Translations under genes and position numbers: made by a program
The notes under the pieces: model-generated
What the model was told of the DNA's origin: nothing
Seen by the model: only the letters and a program-made list of their open reading frames with translations
Database searches by the model: none
Shown here: positions 10,476 to 36,249 of the stretch, piece by piece
Layout of the letters: the number at the start of each line of letters is the position of its first letter
Position numbering within the stretch: position 1 is the stretch's first letter
Assembly (NCBI RefSeq): GCF_024623785.1
Contig: NZ_JANKBZ010000002.1
Coordinates: 372,001-436,000 of the forward strand
DNA from: Archangium lipolyticum
Lineage (GTDB): Bacteria; Myxococcota; Myxococcia; Myxococcales; Myxococcaceae
Length of the DNA: 64,000 nt
Direction: 5' to 3'

Positions 10476-12383
10476 CTACTCGTCCTGCTTCGTGTTCTCG
10501 CCCGGCTCCTTGTAGACGAAGCGCTTGACGGCGGTGACGAACGGGAAGCCCGGGATGCGGGCGGCCCCTGGCCGGGAGCCCGGGAGCTTCTCTTCCCCCT
10601 GCGCGTCCACGTTGCCCAGGATGAAGCACACGGGGTACTCCTTGCCGTCGGGCGTCTGGGCTCTCTCGTAGCGGCCGTAGACGCGGGGGCCCTCGGTGAA
10701 GAGCTCGCCGAAGAGCAGCGTGCCCCGTGGGAGCAGGCCCCTGTCATTGCGTGTCCTGCTGACGATGGAGCCGGAGCGGACTGTGGTGTACGGCTGGTCC
10801 GGGGTCGGCTTGTCCTGCTGGATGTCGGTGATGATGCTCGGGCCGTCCCCCCAGGCCAGACGGAGCTCTCTCATCACGATGCGAGACTCGGGAGGGCAGT
10901 CGGTACTGGCGGGGCGCGTCTGGGCACTGGCACAGGCCAGGCCCACGCAGGCGGCGGTGCCGAGGGCCTTGCCCGCGGAGCCGGGCTCGCGCTGGGGGGA
11001 TGCATCAGGGGTCATCTGTTGGGGCTTCTTCATGGGAGCGCCTTTCATGGCTCGTGCCTCCACGGGGGCGGCAGCCGCGGGGGTTGACTCCAAAGGTAGT
11101 GGGGCCGCGGCCGACCCAGCATCGGAGGGTTCCGGCGCTCGCGCCACTTCGCCGCCTCGGAACACGGGCTCCGGTGGGAGCGGAGCGGGGGCCTTGTTTC
11201 CCAGCACCACCCAGATGCCGGGCAGTGCGAGCCCGAGCCCCAGCACCCCGACCAGGGCTCTCCCGGGAAGTGCCCGGCCCGAGGCCTGGCGCGCCTCCGG
11301 GGCCGGTGCGGGTGCTCCTCTTCTCCGCCGCCGGACGGAGGAGCCTCCCTCGAGGAGCCGCACTCCGGGCTCGGTGACCGTCATCGGGCTGGTGGGGAAG
11401 GCAGGCCGGCGGATGCGCCGTCCCGGTGCCTCTCCCGCCTCGCGTGCCGGGACGGGCTCCCACTCGAAGAGGCTCGCCTCCCACGCCGCGCGCCGGCCGA
11501 AGGACGCCGCCTCCACCAGTGCATCGCGCACCTCGGCTCCCGTGGCGTAGCGCTCCCGGGGATTCTTGGCCAGCATGCGCACCAGCACATCGCTCAGTGC
11601 CTGGGGCACCCGTCGGTTGAAGTCCCGGGGCGCGTGCGGCCGGTTCCTCGTGATGGCCAGCGGGAGCAGATCGCCCAGCAGTTCGGGCGGGAAGGGGTAG
11701 TGCCCCGTCACCGCCCGGTACAGGCTCACGCCGAGCGCGTACAGGTCATCCGCGGCGCCCACCTCGTACGAGGCTCCCGGGAGCTTGCCCCGCTCCACCC
11801 AGAAGCGCATGGCCTCGGGGCTGCGCAGGTGGGTCGTGCCCGGTGGCAGGGGCGTGGAGGTGAGCGAGGTCGCGCCCGCGTAGGTGCCAATGCCGAAGTC
11901 CACCAGCACCGGCTCTCCGTCCGGCTCGCGGATGAGGATGTTCTCCGGCTTCACGTCTCGGTGCAGCACGCCCCGGCCGTGGAGCTCCCCGAGCGCCCCG
12001 GCCAGCTTCGCCCCCGCCTCGGCGAACTGGAGGAAGGAGGGGTTGAGCGTCTCGGCCCACCGGTCCAGCGGTGGGCCGGGCACCAGGTCCATCACGTGGA
12101 AGGTGTGGCCCTTCGGGTCCGGCCAGCGCCCGCAGCCGTGGAAGCGCACCACGTTGGGGTGGACCGCCTGCTCCATCAACAGCACTGCCTCGCGTTGGGC
12201 CCGCGGATCCTCGCGGCGCAGCGCCACCTTGAGGGCGAGCGGCAGGCGGGGGTGGTGGATGTCCTCCACCCGGTAGACGGCGCCGTAGCCGCCCACGCCC
12301 AGGGGCTCCACCACGCGCCACTGGCCTATGTCTGTTCCGGAGGGGAGGGCCTCGGGCCGGAAGAAGGTTGTCGTCTCGTGCAT
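10476..12383 (-). CDS. Eukaryote-like Ser/Thr protein kinase with C-terminal extracytoplasmic domain
   Basis: Transmembrane Hanks-type kinase, 635 residues. The kinase domain (about 20-285) has a glycine loop LGVGGYGAVYR, the ATP lysine in LALKVALR, the catalytic loop HRDVKPEN and the DFG motif as DFGIG, so it looks active. A Pro/Ala-rich linker leads to one membrane helix at about 376-396. The part beyond it ends in a domain containing LPRGTLLFGELF and GRYERAQTPDGKEYPVC, which recurs in the kinase at 34104-36155. It lies 8 bases downstream of a DUF2381 gene and is surely co-transcribed with it, suggesting that the secreted DUF2381 protein acts with the outer domain. Ligand and substrates are unknown. 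Confidence 0.9.
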   Translation of the reverse strand: MHETTTFFRPEALPSGTDIGQWRVVEPLGVGGYGAVYRVEDIHHPRLPLALKVALRREDPRAQREAVLLMEQAVHPNVVRFHGCGRWPDPKGHTFHVMDLVPGPPLDRWAETLNPSFLQFAEAGAKLAGALGELHGRGVLHRDVKPENILIREPDGEPVLVDFGIGTYAGATSLTSTPLPPGTTHLRSPEAMRFWVERGKLPGASYEVGAADDLYALGVSLYRAVTGHYPFPPELLGDLLPLAITRNRPHAPRDFNRRVPQALSDVLVRMLAKNPRERYATGAEVRDALVEAASFGRRAAWEASLFEWEPVPAREAGEAPGRRIRRPAFPTSPMTVTEPGVRLLEGGSSVRRRRRGAPAPAPEARQASGRALPGRALVGVLGLGLALPGIWVVLGNKAPAPLPPEPVFRGGEVARAPEPSDAGSAAAPLPLESTPAAAAPVEARAMKGAPMKKPQQMTPDASPQREPGSAGKALGTAACVGLACASAQTRPASTDCPPESRIVMRELRLAWGDGPSIITDIQQDKPTPDQPYTTVRSGSIVSRTRNDRGLLPRGTLLFGELFTEGPRVYGRYERAQTPDGKEYPVCFILGNVDAQGEEKLPGSRPGAARIPGFPFVTAVKRFVYKEPGENTKQDE

Positions 12384-12391
12384 GATTCTCC

Positions 12392-13261
12392 TCAGAGGGT
12401 GAAGGGGGCGAGGGCCAGGTGGCGCTCACCGTCACGCTCGCGCAGCTCCAGGCTCCAGCGCGGCCGCGTTGGCCGCGAGGGAGGCTCCAGCTCCACGGCG
12501 AGGAAGCGGGCCTCTCCGGGTTGGAGCCACGTTCCGTCCATCCATACGGGCAGCCGCCGGAGCACCTGGCCCGTCGCGTCCCGCAGCCACGCCTCGCCGG
12601 GCGCCCAGGACTGGGCTCCCGGGGCGAGCTTGAGCTGCACGGTCACCAAGGCATGGGCGAGCGTGCGGTAGACGTCGTGAGCGACCACCTCCACCTCGCT
12701 CGACAAGAGCGCGGACGGCAGCCGCTCGTGGGTCACGCCCCCCTGGAGCTCCCCCGAGAGCGCGAGCTTGACGAGGTTGCCCGCCTCGCACCGGGCGCGC
12801 ATCGCCTCCAGCTCGGACTCGAGCGCTGGCACCGAGCGCGGGTGGCGAATCACCCGCACCTGCGCATCCACCTGGGTGGTGGCGGGCACGAGCGCGAGCG
12901 TGGCGTGGGTGGGCGGCAGGCCATCCGCGAAGCCCACCTTGAGCAGCAGGGGCCTGTCCTCGGGCAGCGCGAGGGCCGGGCGCAGCACCACCATGCGGGT
13001 GGTCACCTCCACGAGGGCGAAGCGCTCCTCCCTTCCTTCCACCGAGAGCGAGTCCGGGTCGATCGCCGCATCGAACTCGAGCACGGTGGTGTAGCCGGGA
13101 GCGGCGCGCACCGTGGGCGCGGGAGCGGTGGGGCTGTCGGGGAGCACGAGGGCGCGGGCCTCGAGCCTGGGGTCGGAGAGGAGACGCGGCTGGGCCACCG
13201 CCGAGGCGGTACCCACCAGGGGCAACAGACACAGGGCGCGGCGCGTGAGGGCCAGGGTCAC
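12392..13261 (-). CDS. DUF2381 (TIGR02268) family exported protein
   Basis: Member of a myxobacterial paralogous family of unknown function. 289 residues with a Sec-type signal peptide (TRRALCLLPLVGTASAVA, cleavage around residue 23) and a predicted beta-rich body. Family landmarks are the N-terminal strand region ending VVLRPALALPEDRPLLLKV and the mid-segment VRVIRHPRSVPALESELEAMRARC, a helix following an RHPR motif. GTG start at 13261 with GGAGG about 10 bases upstream. It is the first gene of a two-gene operon with the Ser/Thr kinase downstream. A second DUF2381 gene at 33086-34063 is likewise paired with a kinase, which argues for a functional partnership. Confidence 0.88.
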   Translation of the reverse strand: MTLALTRRALCLLPLVGTASAVAQPRLLSDPRLEARALVLPDSPTAPAPTVRAAPGYTTVLEFDAAIDPDSLSVEGREERFALVEVTTRMVVLRPALALPEDRPLLLKVGFADGLPPTHATLALVPATTQVDAQVRVIRHPRSVPALESELEAMRARCEAGNLVKLALSGELQGGVTHERLPSALLSSEVEVVAHDVYRTLAHALVTVQLKLAPGAQSWAPGEAWLRDATGQVLRRLPVWMDGTWLQPGEARFLAVELEPPSRPTRPRWSLELRERDGERHLALAPFTL

Positions 13262-29006: not shown

Positions 29007-29407
29007 ACCCTCATCCCGTTCTTCACGAGAAGCACCTGGGCCGCATCGAGCCTCTTGCGCGGTAAGCAGGTTGTAGTCGGCCCTGGGCCCTCAGCGCGAC
29101 ACGCGTACCAGCGTCGTCATGTGGCTCTTGAGATCGAGGGGCTCGAGAGCGGCCGGCGGATGGAAGCGCATCGCCCGAGGATGACCTTCCAGCCGTTCCG
29201 GGCCGCCGCCTCCTCACGGATGAGCTCCGCCTCCTTGGCCGCATCCACGCGCTCGCCGTCCTTGAGCACAACCGCCCGAAGATCGCTCGTGATCGGACGA
29301 CCCGGTAGGAAGGCAGGGCTCTCCTCGTAGGATGGGGTCTTGTCTGAGTGGGCAGGTACTGCTTGATTGAGCGCCACCGCCTGGGGCGCTTCGAGAGGGC
29401 GTGCACG
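29007..29407. other. 401-base gap between the 78-residue protein and the toxin candidate
   Basis: No intact gene. It contains the minus-strand relic described at 29093-29345 and, near its right end, GAGAGG about 10 bases before the ATG of the lipoprotein gene at 29408. Frames on the + strand here have no coding character. Confidence 0.5.
29093..29345 (-). pseudogene. Relic of a minus-strand gene, probably frameshifted
   Basis: Two adjacent minus-strand frames both give protein-like sequence with high G/C at third positions. From about 29345 to 29170 one reads SDLRAVVLKDGERVDAAKEA and ends NGWKVIL; a one-base shift at about 29168 leads into MRFHPPAALEPLDLKSHM and a TGA at about 29093. Joined, they would form the C-terminal 80 residues of an unknown protein. 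No credible start is present upstream, since the region runs into the toxin gene. Family unknown. Confidence 0.3.
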
Positions 29408-31660
29408 ATGAGGACTTACCCGTGGGCCGTGCTGCTGCACAGGTGGGCCGCGCTGCTGGGGGCTGTGCTGCTCTTCACCGGCTGCGTCACGCTGGCGCCG
29501 CGACAGGCCGGCAGCACCGCGGAGGGACCCCTCTCCCTCTCCACGTTGCGAGAGGCGGGGACCATTACGCCCCCGCTCGAGGCGCCCTTTCCTCTTGCTT
29601 CCACGGCGAGCTCGGGCGAGGCGTCCGCGTACGAGGTGGCCCGCGCGGGGCCTGCTTCCCAGAATCCGCCCTCGTGCGGAGGGCTGCCCCCGGGGTGGCC
29701 CGACTTCTCCTCCAGTGACAGGGAGGCACTGCTCGCCCCCTTCCTCAGTTGCACCTCGCCCGGGGAAGTTCTCGCCCTGCAGGAGCGGGTGGACATGCCC
29801 AGGCTGGTGGACGCTTTGGACGACTGGCGTGCCGTGCGACTCGGTGCCCTGGGCCCACCGCGCGAGGACGTTGCCCTCCTGCTCAATAAAAAGCGCACCT
29901 CATTGCTCCTCAATGCTCCCGAGGCCTATGGGCGCCTCAACGCGCAGGTGCTCTCCGTCTTCATTGTCGACTCGGCCTACGACAATGACTTGAGGGAGAT
30001 CCTCTTCCTGCTGGCCCAGGACAATCGGCTGGCGGAAACCCTCGCGCTGCTGCCCGCGTTCCAGGTGGCGTTGGAGAAGCGGGGGTTGAAACCCACGGCC
30101 CGTGTGGACCGGGACTCCGAGCTCGGAGACGTGGGCCGGGGCCTGGTCCGAGCTGGAAGGGACGTGCTCTCCAGCTCTCCAATGAGCTCGGACGGAGGGG
30201 ACTTCGCATTCCTCCCTATACGAGGCCAACTGCCGCCGGAGTACCAGGAGGCCCTCGCCACGGCCGAGAAGGAGTTGGTGCGGGATGCCTCGGCGGACAC
30301 CCTGGCGCTGAGTGTGTTTGACCACCTCACCTTTGGCGTGCCGCTGGGTGGCTACGGCTTTGTCACCACCACCCTCCATGGCGGGCGGTCGCTCTGGCAG
30401 GGAGAGTTGGAGAAGGGCACGCGCGAGGTAGCACCAGCGCTGGTGGTGGCCCTCGTCGCGGGTGGCAAGGGCCCGCGCTACCTCTCCAAGGGGAAAGGCG
30501 CTGCGGGTGTGCGCCTGCACCTCCTCACCGGGCTCGAGGCCGCGGAAGCGCGGCTGCGGGCCCTGACGGAGACGGCGCGGCAGCTCCGAGGGGTGATGAG
30601 CCTGGAGGGCCTGCGCGACCTGGTGCGCTACCTCCAGGCGAGCCGGGAGGCAGGCCGTTTCGTCTCCGTGGGTGGGGGGGACGCCGCGCTGGCGCTCTAC
30701 GAGGCCCGGGGAGATGTGGCCAAGGCGCGGCCGCTCATGTCCAAGGCCAGGCCTGGGGCCACGGGCTCCCCGCCCGTGAAGGGTGGCGTGGGCGTCGGCG
30801 CTGGGGAAGCCGTCGGCGCGGCGGACGACGCCGCGCGTCCCTCTGTCAAGAAGGCCGGTGTCACGGAGCGCCATGGCACCCTGGACTCGTTGGTGGATGA
30901 GGGGGTTGGCCACACGCGGCAGGTGGTGGAGGCAAAGCTGGCGGCGGCGGAACACGAGGCCACGGGCCCGCGCCTGCCCAAGGACGTGAGGGTACTGGAG
31001 CAGCACCGCCCCATCCTCGACGCCCCGCCGCCGGAGGCCCGGGGCAACCCGCGCTGGCGCGAGTACGTCGACTACTACAAGAAGCGCTTCATCGAGGTGG
31101 AGGAGGGCACGGCCGTCGAAGGCCCCCTGAAATGGGCGGGCTACGAGCGGCTGCGCGGCTGGTTTGCCCGGGGCATGGCCTTTGAGCGTGACATGGTGAA
31201 GGTGTTGAAGGCTGACGCGGAGAAGCCGCGGGCTGAGCGCCGCTTCCTCGGGGACTTCGACAAGCCCCGCATTGAAACGCAGGTGGGCGTGAGGAAGCCG
31301 GGCCCCGGCCTTCGTTACGCGGATGTGCTCGTTATCGAGGAGGGTGGGCTCGGCGGGCAGCCACGGCGCGTGGAGACGTTCAGCTTCAAGAGCCGAAATC
31401 TCGCACTATTAGAGGAAGAGGCATTGAAGGCGCAGATGAAGGCGGACGCGAGGGAAGCTCTGCGGAACTACGGCGAGACGCTGGATATCCGCCGAGGCTC
31501 CCTCCAGTCCCTGCTCCCAGGGGGCGGCGAAGTGCAGGTTCCAAGGGTTCGTCTCATTTACGAGGGAGGCGACCTCAAGCCCAAGAATGTAGACGTATTG
31601 AAGGCAGCCGTGAACGAAACCAAGGCAGTGGTTCCGGGAGTCGAGGTGGTGTTTCAATGA
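29408..31660 (+). CDS. Large lipoprotein with a variable C-terminal domain, SitA-like polymorphic toxin candidate
   Basis: 750 residues. Signal sequence with lipobox FTGC (lipidated Cys at residue 26). A long N-terminal region (about 60-480) contains glycine-rich and hydrophobic stretches (FGVPLGGYGFVTTTLHGG, VAPALVVALVAGGKG). After a Gly/Ala-rich linker (about 455-480) comes a charged C-terminal domain; Asp639 in YADVLV followed by VETFSFKSR (Glu656, Lys661) loosely resembles a PD-(D/E)XK nuclease core. Size, lipidation, modular C-terminus and ATGA coupling to the next gene match the SitA/SitI lipoprotein toxins that Myxococcus transfers by TraA/TraB outer-membrane exchange. That assignment is inference. 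No sitB-like gene is adjacent. Confidence 0.6.
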   Translation: MRTYPWAVLLHRWAALLGAVLLFTGCVTLAPRQAGSTAEGPLSLSTLREAGTITPPLEAPFPLASTASSGEASAYEVARAGPASQNPPSCGGLPPGWPDFSSSDREALLAPFLSCTSPGEVLALQERVDMPRLVDALDDWRAVRLGALGPPREDVALLLNKKRTSLLLNAPEAYGRLNAQVLSVFIVDSAYDNDLREILFLLAQDNRLAETLALLPAFQVALEKRGLKPTARVDRDSELGDVGRGLVRAGRDVLSSSPMSSDGGDFAFLPIRGQLPPEYQEALATAEKELVRDASADTLALSVFDHLTFGVPLGGYGFVTTTLHGGRSLWQGELEKGTREVAPALVVALVAGGKGPRYLSKGKGAAGVRLHLLTGLEAAEARLRALTETARQLRGVMSLEGLRDLVRYLQASREAGRFVSVGGGDAALALYEARGDVAKARPLMSKARPGATGSPPVKGGVGVGAGEAVGAADDAARPSVKKAGVTERHGTLDSLVDEGVGHTRQVVEAKLAAAEHEATGPRLPKDVRVLEQHRPILDAPPPEARGNPRWREYVDYYKKRFIEVEEGTAVEGPLKWAGYERLRGWFARGMAFERDMVKVLKADAEKPRAERRFLGDFDKPRIETQVGVRKPGPGLRYADVLVIEEGGLGGQPRRVETFSFKSRNLALLEEEALKAQMKADAREALRNYGETLDIRRGSLQSLLPGGGEVQVPRVRLIYEGGDLKPKNVDVLKAAVNETKAVVPGVEVVFQ

Positions 31661-32997
31661 AACGGCTGAGCGTGCACGACTTGAAGCCGGAGGATCGCCT
31701 CCGGCTCACTTTCGACGGTGGCTTCGACCAGCGGGCCGCATTGGAAAGAGAGCTGGGGCCCTTTCTCCAGGCACTTGAGCAGCACGCCGACGGGTGGATG
31801 CCGGACATCGTCAACGGCAAGCGTCAACGGAAATATTCTCGCGCTTCCTTTTGGAAGGCCCTGGAGGAGCGGCGCGACGAGAACACCACGGGTCTCGGGC
31901 TCTATCGTACGACGTGGCCCGCGTTGGACATGTCGCTCAGTCTCTGGTTTCCGCCGCTACCTCCCAAACTGGGAATCTTCATCAACGTCAAGCCCCTCTC
32001 TTTCTTCGCGGAAGCGGAGCGTTGTCACCGCTTCGTGGAGATGGTGCGCGCCTGGGCCTCTCGCTACCCGGTCACTCATGCAAAGGCTCACAGCGCCGAT
32101 GATACGGAACTGGCGGGCTCTCCCAATTTTGGCCGCGATGACGAGACTGAGTACAGAGACGGGTTCGACAAGGTTTACGAGGTCTTCTGGCTCAACGTCT
32201 TCGGCTCCAAGCTGGTGGAAACGGTCGGCCGCGAGCGCATGCTGTCCACGCCGGCTCACCGGGTGGAGGAACTGCCCAACGGCTCCGTCCTCCTGGTGAC
32301 GTGGCCCACGGTGGCGGATTTCGCCAGCAAGGAGGCACGGCTCGCGCAGGCTCGCGCCCACGTCCACCTCCGGCCAGACCTTGACTTCGACACCGTGCTG
32401 CGAACCTTGCATGAGCGCAGTGCCACGCTCGCCCCCGTGGAGCCCCGCTTCCACCCTGACCTGGCGCCGCTCCTCTCGCGCGTGGTGGACCGCGCCGCCA
32501 GCCATGAGCGCCAGCACCGAATCGCCGAACTCAACATGTGGCGCCCGCCCGATCCGGAGGAGTGGCTCCCTGCCGACTCCGCCCTCTCCCCGGACGTGGA
32601 AAATCTAGAGCGTGCTCTGCGGCAGTACAGCCTCTACGCCGAGCACCTCGTGGCGCTACTGCACTCGGAGGTGCCCTCGGTTCTCAAGGCGACGCCCGAG
32701 TCACTCACGGATGCCGACTTCTACTTCTGGCGGGAGGAGTTCCCGAAGAGTCGCCTTCGGGAGGCCATCGACGGGCACGCGGTGCCCGCCATTGGTGCGT
32801 ACCTGGGTGAAGTGCTGGTGCGCAACCTGGGCGGCAGGTGGATTCCGCGCCAGAAACTCGAGGAGGCACAGGTGCTGGTTGGCAACCGCATCTGGTTTCC
32901 GTTTGTCCGGGCCCGCCATTACATGCGCTCGCGACAGACGCTGTTGGACTACTCCCTCACCCAGCTCTTCCACGTGGCCGAGAGGAACAGGGGCTGA
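31657..32997 (+). CDS. Probable cognate immunity protein of the lipoprotein toxin candidate
   Basis: 446 residues, no signal peptide or membrane segment, so cytoplasmic, where an immunity protein against a nuclease would be needed. Its start overlaps the toxin stop (ATGA), so the two are made together. The N-terminal half (about 1-250) has the mix of aromatic strands and helices (GLGLYRTTWPALDMSLSLWF, VYEVFWLNVFGSKLVETVG) seen in Imm52/DUF3396-type immunity proteins; the C-terminal half contains AIGAYLGEVLVRNLGG, a segment common in DUF6278-like proteins. It is longer than usual immunity proteins and looks like a fusion. Family assignment is tentative. Confidence 0.55.
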   Translation: MKRLSVHDLKPEDRLRLTFDGGFDQRAALERELGPFLQALEQHADGWMPDIVNGKRQRKYSRASFWKALEERRDENTTGLGLYRTTWPALDMSLSLWFPPLPPKLGIFINVKPLSFFAEAERCHRFVEMVRAWASRYPVTHAKAHSADDTELAGSPNFGRDDETEYRDGFDKVYEVFWLNVFGSKLVETVGRERMLSTPAHRVEELPNGSVLLVTWPTVADFASKEARLAQARAHVHLRPDLDFDTVLRTLHERSATLAPVEPRFHPDLAPLLSRVVDRAASHERQHRIAELNMWRPPDPEEWLPADSALSPDVENLERALRQYSLYAEHLVALLHSEVPSVLKATPESLTDADFYFWREEFPKSRLREAIDGHAVPAIGAYLGEVLVRNLGGRWIPRQKLEEAQVLVGNRIWFPFVRARHYMRSRQTLLDYSLTQLFHVAERNRG

Positions 32998-33085: not shown

Positions 33086-34063
33086 CTACTCGGGTGTCGA
33101 GCCCTGCTTCGCAGCCGCCGGGAACGTGATGTTCCCGATTGTGACGGTGCGTGGTCCTTGTGTCTCCCATAGCTTGAGGGTGCAGGGGCAGCTGAGTTGC
33201 CCCGGGTCTCTCTGGGCACCCACTACGATGGCACCAAGGGTTTCGGGAGGGATGGCTGTCTCTTGCCACACGGATAGCTCCACCTCCTCGCCCTTCGAGT
33301 CCTTCAATACTGCTCCCGCTGCTGTCCAGGGCTCGGCGCCAGGGTTTAGGAACTCAAGCCTTGCTGCCAGGCTTCCCGGGTGGCTGTAACTCCTGATTCC
33401 ACGTGCTGATAGGGCGTTGTTGGGGTGGTGCTCTACCTGTTTCCACATGTCTTTTGATTGCACGGCGTTTGTGCGTTCCAGCCATACTGTGCCCATGAGT
33501 CCGCCTGGCTCTTTGCGCTCGAGCAAAAGCCGCGCCTTTTCTTCCTGGCACTGGTTCGCTCTGACCTGCGCCTCGGCTGCCTCCTTCTTGAGCGCGTCCG
33601 CAGCACGAGGGTGGCGGAACACCTCCACGCGTCGTGCTCCTCGTGCTGCATGCCCCACCAGCCAGAAACTTGTTCTCTCCGGGGCTGCGCCATCATTGAA
33701 ACGCACGGTCAGCTTGACGCGCTCCGCGGGTAGGAAACCTCGTTTCGGATAGACGGTCACGAAGTCATCGCCTTGCGCGACGCTCACGGAGCGACTGACT
33801 GACTCCACCGCCACCGCCCCTGGTGTCAACGGAGAATCGAATACGAACGTCACAGGCTCCTCTGGGGTGGCACATACGCTGGGTGCCTCGTTGGAGCCGG
33901 TCGTCAAGTCAACGCGGGAGGTGGCGGAGCATTCGGGGGGGCGGGGCGGATCGGCGGTTTCTACGGTGCCTGCCTGGAGGGCCAAGACCAGGAGGGCGCC
34001 GGATGTCGGCGGGAGCACGGGAATCAATCTCCAGGATACAAGCGGTACCGAGGCCAGCTGCAC
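33086..34063 (-). CDS. Second DUF2381 (TIGR02268) family exported protein
   Basis: 325 residues with an N-terminal hydrophobic export signal (about 15-35). It shares the layout of the DUF2381 protein at 12392-13261: strands ending YPKRGFLPAERVKLTV, then VEVFRHPRAADALKKEAAEA with the same helix after an RHPR motif, and a beta-rich C-terminus. GTG start at 34063. It lies 40 bases downstream of a Ser/Thr kinase, the reverse gene order of the first module. Codons here are less GC-rich than in neighbours (for example around 33400-33700), which hints at later acquisition or relaxed selection. Confidence 0.85.
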   Translation of the reverse strand: MQLASVPLVSWRLIPVLPPTSGALLVLALQAGTVETADPPRPPECSATSRVDLTTGSNEAPSVCATPEEPVTFVFDSPLTPGAVAVESVSRSVSVAQGDDFVTVYPKRGFLPAERVKLTVRFNDGAAPERTSFWLVGHAARGARRVEVFRHPRAADALKKEAAEAQVRANQCQEEKARLLLERKEPGGLMGTVWLERTNAVQSKDMWKQVEHHPNNALSARGIRSYSHPGSLAARLEFLNPGAEPWTAAGAVLKDSKGEEVELSVWQETAIPPETLGAIVVGAQRDPGQLSCPCTLKLWETQGPRTVTIGNITFPAAAKQGSTPE

Positions 34064-34103: not shown

Positions 34104-36155
34104 TTATTGGAAACGATTCGTTTGACTCAGTTGCAGGATGGACGTTCCCTTGATGTTGCCCGGCCTGCTCTCTTCGTCAGGGCAGTCACCCACGCCTACA
34201 GGGCAATCGTCCGTCGGTGCGTCTCGATAGATCTGAATGCAAACCGGATGGATCTGCCGGTCTGGTGTCTGTGCTTGGGTGAAGCGGCCGAAGAAACGAT
34301 TCTCCCCAAACACCAGCGTCCCGATCAGCAGGGTGCCGCGTGGTAGTTTGTCCCAACCCATATCCAACTCCAGAGTCATGGGGCCCTCGTGGAGGGTAGG
34401 CCTTTCCTGCGGCTCTCCCTTGTAGCCTGGCACAAGGCCATATCCCCGACTGCTAATACCAAACCGGGTGTGCGTCTCGCGCCAGCCAGCGGGGCATTCG
34501 ACGGGCGCTGGCTCGGGGCGCACCTGGGGACCCGCGCATCCGGTGAGAATGGTGGTGCAGACACCGGCCGCCGTGCAGACCCGTTTGGCAATGGGGATGC
34601 ATTTCGACGTTTTGCCCCGCGACTGGGACGTGGGCTTCTCTTCGGGCTTCAAGCGGGATTCTTTCTGACGAAGCATGGTGGGGGAGGGCGCGGGGGGTTG
34701 GGCCCTGTCGGGCGCCGCGCTTGATATAGCTTCGGCAGGGTTGCCCGATCGCGCCACTTCGCGGACAAAAGCAGCCTGAGTCGTCACCTCACCCTGAGTG
34801 GATGTGTAAGGTTGGAGTGCGGCCCTCTTCTCTTCGGGCGGGGGCTTGGGCGGGCGCATGGAGCCCACCGCGATCGCCACCACCGCGAGCCCCACCATCA
34901 GCGCGATCCCCAGGGGAAGGGCGTCCGCACCGCTCATCCAGCGGCGCCCGCCCCGGGCCCTCCCTGGCTCGGCTTCGTCAGCCATTGCCCCCACGGCGGG
35001 GCTTTCCGCGTGTCGTGAGGCGGCTGCCTCTGTCTCGTGAGCGGCCGGTGTGTCCACCGCCAGGGTGGGTACCTCAACAAGGGCGGGCGGCTCGTCCGGC
35101 GGCGCTGCCGCTGGTTCCTCCTGCACTGGTGGCTCCTCCACTGGCCTCCAGCCGCGCCGGGGCCTGTGGGCCATCCACCGCTGTCCCTCCCTCGGTTTCT
35201 TCTGGTGGGGTTCTCCGCCCTTGCCCGAATTGCTCTCCGTCGTCGCGTCGTGGGGCGGCGGAGGTTCCATCAGCGGCACGTCCCAGCTCGCGTCCCCCTC
35301 GGCCGCGGCCAGCACCGCTTCCAGTGCCTCGCACAACTCGTCGTCATCCTTGAAGCGTGCCCTCGCGTCCTTCTCCAGCATGCGCATGCACAGCCGGCTC
35401 GCCGCCTCGGGCACTCGCGGGTTCGTGACGTGGGGCTCCCTGGGCGTGTTCAGCAGGATCCGGTCATGCAGCCCCATCACCATCCGGCCGCCGAAGGGCA
35501 CCTCATCCGTCAGCAGCCAGTACAGGAGCACCCCCATCGCCCACAACTCGTCGGACAGCGTGTAGGTGTAGATGTTTTCTTCTGTCTCGCCCCTCAGGAA
35601 CTTGATCATCTCGGGGCTGCGATACTCGGGGGTCCCGGGCGGCACCAGGCCCGGCGTCGTCTCCGTGGGAATTCCCTTCATGGCCCCGAAACCGAAGTCG
35701 ATCACCACCGGCTCGCCGTCGTCGGCGCGGATCATGATGTTCGTTTCCTTCAGGTCCCGGTGCAGCACCTCGCGCCGATGCACCTCCCTCATGGCTCGCG
35801 CGACCTTCAAGTACGTGTTCATCCCCACCCGGGCCGTGGGGTTGAAGCGCTGCGCCCACCGGTCCATCGTCAGCCCGGGGACGTAGTCCATGACGATGTA
35901 CGGATAGCCCAGGTCCGGGTCCGGCCACCGCTCGCACGCGCGAAAGCCCACCACGTTCGGTAGCTGGAGCCGGAGCATCAGCGTGATTTCCCGCCGGTTC
36001 CAGCCCGTCAGCTCCAGGTCCGCCAGGAACTTGATGGCGAAGGAGCGCTCGCCCCGCTCGGCCTTGTACACATGGCCCGAGCCGCCCTCTCCCAGCTTCT
36101 GGGTGATGATGTAGTCGCCGACCCGGGCGCCAATTCTTGGAAGGTGGATGATCAG
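34104..36155 (-). CDS. Second eukaryote-like Ser/Thr kinase with the shared C-terminal extracytoplasmic domain
   Basis: 683 residues if started at CTG 36155. The kinase domain has LGEGGSGHVYKA, the ATP lysine in FAIKFL, HRDLKETN and DFGFG, so it should be active. A Pro-rich linker, one membrane helix at about 415-433, then an outer region whose Cys-containing part and the motifs LPRGTLLIGTLVFG and GRFTQAQTPDRQIHPVC match the kinase at 10476-12383. An annotated start inside the glycine loop (GTG at 36071) would delete the ATP-binding loop; the frame is open back to a TAG and the only start-like codon is CTG at 36155, preceded by GAGGAG. Co-transcribed with the DUF2381 gene downstream. Confidence 0.85.
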   Translation of the reverse strand: MIIHLPRIGARVGDYIITQKLGEGGSGHVYKAERGERSFAIKFLADLELTGWNRREITLMLRLQLPNVVGFRACERWPDPDLGYPYIVMDYVPGLTMDRWAQRFNPTARVGMNTYLKVARAMREVHRREVLHRDLKETNIMIRADDGEPVVIDFGFGAMKGIPTETTPGLVPPGTPEYRSPEMIKFLRGETEENIYTYTLSDELWAMGVLLYWLLTDEVPFGGRMVMGLHDRILLNTPREPHVTNPRVPEAASRLCMRMLEKDARARFKDDDELCEALEAVLAAAEGDASWDVPLMEPPPPHDATTESNSGKGGEPHQKKPREGQRWMAHRPRRGWRPVEEPPVQEEPAAAPPDEPPALVEVPTLAVDTPAAHETEAAASRHAESPAVGAMADEAEPGRARGGRRWMSGADALPLGIALMVGLAVVAIAVGSMRPPKPPPEEKRAALQPYTSTQGEVTTQAAFVREVARSGNPAEAISSAAPDRAQPPAPSPTMLRQKESRLKPEEKPTSQSRGKTSKCIPIAKRVCTAAGVCTTILTGCAGPQVRPEPAPVECPAGWRETHTRFGISSRGYGLVPGYKGEPQERPTLHEGPMTLELDMGWDKLPRGTLLIGTLVFGENRFFGRFTQAQTPDRQIHPVCIQIYRDAPTDDCPVGVGDCPDEESRPGNIKGTSILQLSQTNRFQ

Positions 36156-36249
36156 GCCGCGAGCCTCCTCGGGTTCGCGGCTACCCTAGCAGAACGTGAC
36201 TTATGCGGTAGTGCCGTCCCGGGTCATGGACGGGGTTGAGTCCCAGGGC

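Follow-up and report, generated by a model that had tools for sequence, protein, structure and literature searches.

A DUF2381-kinase module of Archangium lipolyticum as a probable converted VirB9-VirB10 pair

The outer-membrane core of type IV secretion systems (T4SSs) comprises the subunits VirB9/TrwF/TraK/DotH and VirB10/TrwE/TraB/DotG. According to an EMBO J review (PMC12624023), VirB10 reaches from the cytoplasm to the outer membrane and senses ATPase activity, VirB9 and the C-terminal domain of VirB10 form part of the core complex, and TraK, TrwF and DotH stand in the VirB9 row. A second described arrangement is that of the PASTA kinases (PknB/StkP), which have a cytoplasmic kinase, one transmembrane (TM) segment and an extracytoplasmic sensor-like domain, and a third is the Myxococcus xanthus paralogous family Pfam DUF2381 / NCBIfam TIGR02268, to which no function is assigned. 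Here we analysed a stretch of 64,000 nucleotides of Archangium lipolyticum (assembly GCF_024623785.1, contig NZ_JANKBZ010000002.1, positions 372,001 to 436,000; hereafter, the window), and we describe a module in it that consists of a DUF2381 gene and the gene of a membrane Ser/Thr kinase with an outer domain (OD).

The module is similar to the T4SS core in the gene order of its T4SS-linked relatives, in the TrbI match seen in relatives, in the VirB10 topology of its kinase and in the fold matches of its DUF2381 protein. It differs in carrying a Ser/Thr kinase in place of the short cytoplasmic end of VirB10 and, in the window's genome, in the lack of any detected T4SS, a missing antenna part, an added Cys pair and about fifty copies. 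The general layout is that of the PASTA kinases, but the OD is VirB10-like instead of PASTA, a dedicated gene for a secreted partner lies alongside, and the PASTA kinase model NF033483 gave 116 bits, below its equivalog cut-off of 450. The DUF2381 protein belongs to the DUF2381/TIGR02268 family, which is tied here to VirB9 and to the OD. We propose, with a probability of roughly 0.72, that the two genes of the module come from the outer-membrane core of a T4SS and have been converted: the kinase corresponds to a VirB10 whose cytoplasmic end is a kinase domain, DUF2381 corresponds to the VirB9 that goes with it, and together they make up a receptor-kinase family. This proposal is built, by means of sequence, synteny, trees and fold matching, on the pairing of the two genes, their homology to the core subunits, an origin in a T4SS operon, intact catalytic motifs and the lack of detectable VirB4 and VirB8 in the window's genome. 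The features of the module are the following:

12392..13261, minus strand: DUF2381/TIGR02268 gene, VirB9-like periplasmic protein of 289 amino acids (aa), with signal-peptide-like start, N-terminal beta domain, helical linker and C-terminal beta domain
12384..12391, minus strand: 8-base gap GGAGAATC, with a Shine-Dalgarno-like GGAG ahead of the kinase start
10476..12383, minus strand: membrane Ser/Thr kinase of 635 aa, with cytoplasmic kinase, TM segment, Pro-rich linker and VirB10-like OD
11514..12329, minus strand: Hanks-type kinase domain with Gly loop GVGGYG, ALK, HRDVKPEN and DFG
10518..10949, minus strand: OD of the kinase, similar to the VirB10/TrbI C-terminal domain, with conserved Cys pair, LPRGTLL and AQTPDGKEYPVC

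The first-pass annotation had placed a DUF2381 gene 8 bases ahead of a transmembrane Ser/Thr kinase, and the Pfam and NCBIfam searches confirmed both genes at these coordinates. The 289-aa protein is a clear family member (Pfam DUF2381, 157.2 bits with a cut-off of 29.2; TIGR02268, 151.7 bits with a cut-off of 76.15), and its signal-peptide-like start was judged by eye. The kinase matched Pfam Pkinase with 89.9 bits (cut-off 31.7) and has all four Hanks-type motifs (Gly loop, lysine, HRDxKxxN and DFG), which are followed by the hydrophobic segment ALVGVLGLGLALPGIWVVL and by the C-terminal domain that carries LPRGTLL and AQTPDGKEYPVC. The cytoplasmic N-terminus, single TM segment, Pro-rich linker and C-terminal domain make up a VirB10-type topology.

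In other Myxococcota the pair ends a T4SS operon, where VirB2-3-4-5-6-8 are followed by DUF2381 and then by the kinase with its OD, DUF2381 occupying the VirB9 place and the OD the VirB10 place. This is the virB2-virB10 order of plasmid R388. We found VirB8, then a DUF2381-type gene at the VirB9 position and then a VirB10 domain fused to a kinase at 19 loci, which come from 14 genomes and mostly have VirB4/5/6 upstream; L220 and L222 among them are nearly identical. The profiles used for labelling these loci were iterated at a loose inclusion limit (1e-3), and the weaker labels therefore lean on gene order no less than on score. In Pfam, L220 and L227 gave TrbC/VirB2 (3e-6, just under the cut-off), TraC-type VirB4 (over the cut-off), TrbL/VirB6 (over the cut-off in L227), a weak TraE or VirB8 and DUF2381 (over the cut-off); L227 also matched the VirD4-like TraG-D_C. 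The C-terminus of the L220 kinase passes the Pfam TrbI cut-off of 35 bits (36.1 bits; 40.0 for the domain alone). The same operon occurs with a kinase-free VirB10 in L266, on a plasmid-sized contig from the window's own genus, and in L273. In addition, the annotation of plasmid NZ_CP123279.1 of Myxococcus sp. MxC21-1 lists in a row a TraC family protein, three hypothetical proteins, a DUF2381 family protein and a protein kinase. This plasmid is a named example of the T4SS-linked pair, for which its annotation says nothing more specific than these two names; its kinase had no TrbI match at E<=0.05. Downstream of the L220 operon there is a tyrosine recombinase gene (L220:15370-16446; Phage_integrase, 3.9e-22), which suggests an integrative element. 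A search of viral contigs found no relatives.

Homology of the OD to the VirB10 C-terminal domain is well supported. At E<=0.1, 17 of the 23 T4SS-linked domains matched TrbI and 21 matched TraM (transposon family). At E<=1, a profile of the T4SS-linked domains recovered only the solved VirB10 structure 6gyb (E 0.0012) and ComB10 (0.017), and its comparison with the ODs of the window's genome gave a 97.6% profile match. Among the own-genome ODs scanned, 11/44 matched TrbI directly (best 0.0012). The model of the OD, which is poor (predicted local distance difference test, pLDDT, 42.5), had VirB10-type structures in all of its top 13 Foldseek rows (13/13; best E 6e-3; VIA Z <=4.7), and a hydrophobic segment follows the kinase domain in 30 out of 36 own kinase-OD frames. 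The OD tail, which runs from the PxGT motif to the last residue, has 71-108 aa in 36/41 own ODs versus 124-172 aa in 20 T4SS domains. Judged from these lengths and from alignments, the own ODs are short at the place of the outer-membrane antenna of VirB10. A Cys pair is present in the OD of 43 of the 44 own rows. Just ahead of the OD, own kinase-OD frames also have a further hydrophobic segment, which contains a Cys, in part resembles a lipobox and is absent from the T4SS-linked forms inspected by eye; we do not claim this lipobox as proof of processing, the strict motif being found in 12/35 kinase frames and 4/15 solo frames. Matches of the OD to fatty-acid-binding-protein-like domains of eukaryotic proteins (E 0.028 and weaker) were set aside as chance because VirB10 dominated the Pfam, profile and fold results.

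It is likewise well supported that DUF2381 is a VirB9-like periplasmic protein by homology. In the model of the window protein (mean pLDDT 66.9) a helix links two beta domains, as in the VirB9/TraK-like fold, and its best Foldseek matches were TraK of the F plasmid (4.1e-8) and DotH (2.3e-6), while the VIA Z values were 11.2 for DotH, 10.0 for TraK and 9.1 and 8.8 for VirB9/TrwF. The absence of a structure from the VIA lists was never counted as evidence. Support from sequence is thin. Pfam CagX was found neither for the window protein nor among the matches listed for the own copies, of which 2/41 matched TraK_C (0.049) and 1/41 matched DotH_IcmK (4e-4). The T4SS-linked homologues gave sub-cut-off matches to CagX in 3/25 (best 0.014) and to TraK_C in 1/25 (2.3e-4); CagX (0.042) and DUF2381 (1.8e-5) fell on one protein in L266, and L271 matched TraK_C with 2.8e-4. 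A search of DUF2381 against the PDB by sequence gave nothing useful. The window gene is not placed between virB8 and virB10, no T4SS genes having been detected in its genome.

The window's genome (G000; 12.6 Mb in 75 contigs) had 53 DUF2381 matches, which we counted as 51 genes, and we searched all frames within ~8 kb on each side of them (less at contig ends) with profiles of the window proteins. A same-strand OD gene lay <=6 kb from 48 of the 51 genes, and random placement would pair ~1.3 of them; the pairing is beyond chance. The OD was fused to a kinase in 35 of the 48 pairs, in one pair it lay beside a kinase frame that is split, and in 12 it was kinase-free; the kinase-free ods are often small genes with a lipoprotein-like start, and L086 and L092 among the 12 seem cut or truncated. 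Since 12/48 pairs have an OD with no kinase part, whether fused or as a separate split frame, the partner of DUF2381 is the OD rather than the kinase. The survey of myxobacterial genomes that the first-pass annotation had proposed extends the pairing: at E<=0.001, and uncorrected for kinship, 72 of 193 Myxococcota genomes had both DUF2381 and the OD, 6 had DUF2381 only, 1 had the OD only and 114 had neither. In 17 further genomes listed in full, an OD or VirB10-like domain lay beside 24 of the 27 DUF2381 genes, and the other 3 were at contig ends. The single genome with an OD and no DUF2381 (G156) has a kinase with a VirB10-like domain (L235) on a 4 kb contig, too short to tell. OD genes without a DUF2381 neighbour are also seen in the window's genome, at G000:C3:353431 and G000:C36:78752-79205, the latter in two pieces.

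The divergence of both partners was compared after dropping 5 of 49 pair rows that had no near-complete domains (the 49 rows are the 48 pairs, with one broken gene counted twice). Among the kinase pairs (n=33), DUF2381 distances correlated with OD distances with r 0.91 and with kinase distances with r 0.74, and in partial correlation the values were 0.79 for DUF2381-OD and 0.23 for DUF2381-kinase. None of 5000 shuffles came close. Because OD and kinase are one polypeptide, the closer correlation with the OD points to a predicted contact between DUF2381 and the OD, but common descent as a unit contributes to the correlation. The earlier suggestion that DUF2381 is an envelope partner of this kinase class is supported by the conserved pairing, the co-occurrence and the correlated divergence, but the partner is the OD and not the kinase; and a VirB9-like plus VirB10-like pair takes the place of the generic ligand or chaperone plus sensor that had been suggested, a reading we replaced once the T4SS operons appeared. 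Correlated divergence would also be expected if DUF2381 were a chaperone or stabiliser of the OD with no sensing role, and the extension of the pairing to lipoprotein-like ODs without a kinase fits that explanation as well. We regard it as unlikely, though, for it leaves the kept VirB9/VirB10 arrangement and the diversification of the copies unexplained, and no chaperone family match stood out.

Trees were built after dropping sequences under the length limits. In the DUF2381 tree a branch with support 97 splits 47 detached copies from 25 T4SS-linked ones, and in the kinase tree 40 detached kinases stand on one side of a branch with support 99. The T4SS-linked kinases L268, L269 and L235 group with other kinases, of which only 13 were included, and are perhaps separate kinase-VirB10 fusions. 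Among the distinct own fused kinases the catalytic motifs are kept, with HRDxKxxN in 34/35 and D[FL]G in 35/35. As the detached kinases form one clade, simple loss of the kinase is preferred for the solo OD copies, and re-fusion of kinases onto lipoprotein ODs is disfavoured. The trees also bear on the idea that the detached pairs serve in surveillance or exclusion, as decoy VirB9/VirB10 subunits that would bind to conjugation machines, whether these are arriving or already resident, and would use the kinase to report or to block them. The homology to T4SS core subunits, the many diverged copies and the T4SS plasmids in close relatives (one of them in the same genus) speak for such decoys, but the detached copies form a clade of their own, far from the plasmid VirB9s, and we consider this explanation distinctly improbable.

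In the window's genome we found no TraC_F_IV, no L220-type VirB4 at 1e-10 and no VirB8 at E<=1, and eight operon profiles searched against its DUF2381 loci gave no clear match (best E 0.01). That the detached pairs still form small export or attachment conduits, which the kinase merely gates, is very improbable: the VirB9/VirB10-like parts are indeed kept as pairs and the kinase sits in the full operon of the T4SS-linked relatives, but these searches for VirB4, VirB8 and operon partners were negative and the OD tail is short where the antenna would lie.

For the converted core pair we infer a mechanism, from the binding of the two proteins and their oligomer to the stimulus, the direction of signalling and the targets. 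On this reading the pair arose within a T4SS operon, left it and multiplied to about fifty copies, with loss of the channel-forming part. DUF2381 and the OD would form a periplasmic assembly like that of VirB9 and VirB10, and an envelope or cell-contact event would alter this assembly; the change would be transmitted via the linker and the helix, bringing the kinase domains together. The kinase would then phosphorylate cytoplasmic targets, perhaps including, in some loci, an adjacent soluble kinase and a helix-turn-helix (HTH) regulator. The VirB9/VirB10-like assembly would thus be kept as a sensor, and its state would be read by the kinase domains that stand where VirB10 has its cytoplasmic end. 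Five own loci (L079, L081, L087, L090 and L093) have a soluble kinase of ~360-440 aa and an XRE-type HTH gene adjoining the pair, and these genes are possible outputs or an extended module. We give an even chance to the broader view that these are envelope receptor kinases derived from a VirB9-VirB10 core without a channel, multiplied to about fifty receptor pairs in one genome, every one of them having a matched periplasmic partner of its own, and that the T4SS-linked form is a channel with a built-in kinase reporting or gating the channel state; some kinase-VirB10 fusions may be separate.

Several results weigh against the conversion of a T4SS core pair. The best DUF2381 model has modest confidence and the OD model has low pLDDT. 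DUF2381 had no VirB9-family Pfam match over the cut-off, its profile did not match the single sequences of R388 TrwF, R751 TrbG and F TraK, and the OD of the window kinase scored 11.5 bits against Pfam TrbI, below the cut-off of 35. Regarding the pairing, 3 of the 51 DUF2381 genes had no OD neighbour (L101 and L102, short or degenerate, and L104, at a contig edge), and the contig end explains one of these and not the other two; 5 of the 53 OD places in the window's genome had no same-strand DUF2381 neighbour; and both gene orders occur, with DUF2381 upstream or downstream of the OD. Finally, the correlated divergence could reflect duplication as a unit instead of contact, and the nearest neighbours of DUF2381 and of the OD agree in only 24/44 cases.

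No paper on DUF2381 or TIGR02268 was found in the literature searched, outside of which most subscription papers lie, and in the same literature, including the available parts of PMC6759196, PMC2877116 and PMC2887360, there was no description of DUF2381-OD pairing or of a kinase-VirB10. The part of the T4SS nomenclature review PMC12857230 that was available contains neither "kinase" nor "Myxococc". The homologies give a structural identity to a family with no assigned function that is present in 78 of the 193 Myxococcota genomes searched, and account for the OD that a large group of kinases has in this myxobacterium. Parts of a secretion channel have apparently been reused as a receptor, and there are T4SSs whose central VirB10 subunit bears a kinase. 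With a VirB10 that bears a kinase, the sensing of ATPase activity recorded for VirB10 (PMC12624023) can be tested by following phosphorylation. Every pair also implies one specific partner, which makes tests of interaction and specificity simple.

The window contains a second module, with the following features:

33086..34063, minus strand: DUF2381 gene
34104..36185, minus strand: kinase frame, in which a GTG at 36071 falls after the Gly loop
34110..34547, minus strand: OD of the kinase

The gene order is reversed in this module, with the kinase upstream and DUF2381 (33086-34063) downstream. The OD of its kinase carries LPRGTLL and AQTPDRQIHPVC, and the motifs LPRGTLL and AQTPD..PVC are indeed common to the kinases of both modules, as had been noticed at first pass. 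The part of the kinase frame at 36072-36185 (minus strand) has no in-frame ATG, GTG or TTG ahead of the Gly loop, and another start codon is possible. Beside the second module, at 29348-32997 on the plus strand, a gene for a 770-aa protein with a lipoprotein-like start is followed by a 446-aa gene; neither had a Pfam match, and we presume a resemblance to a lipoprotein toxin and immunity pair.

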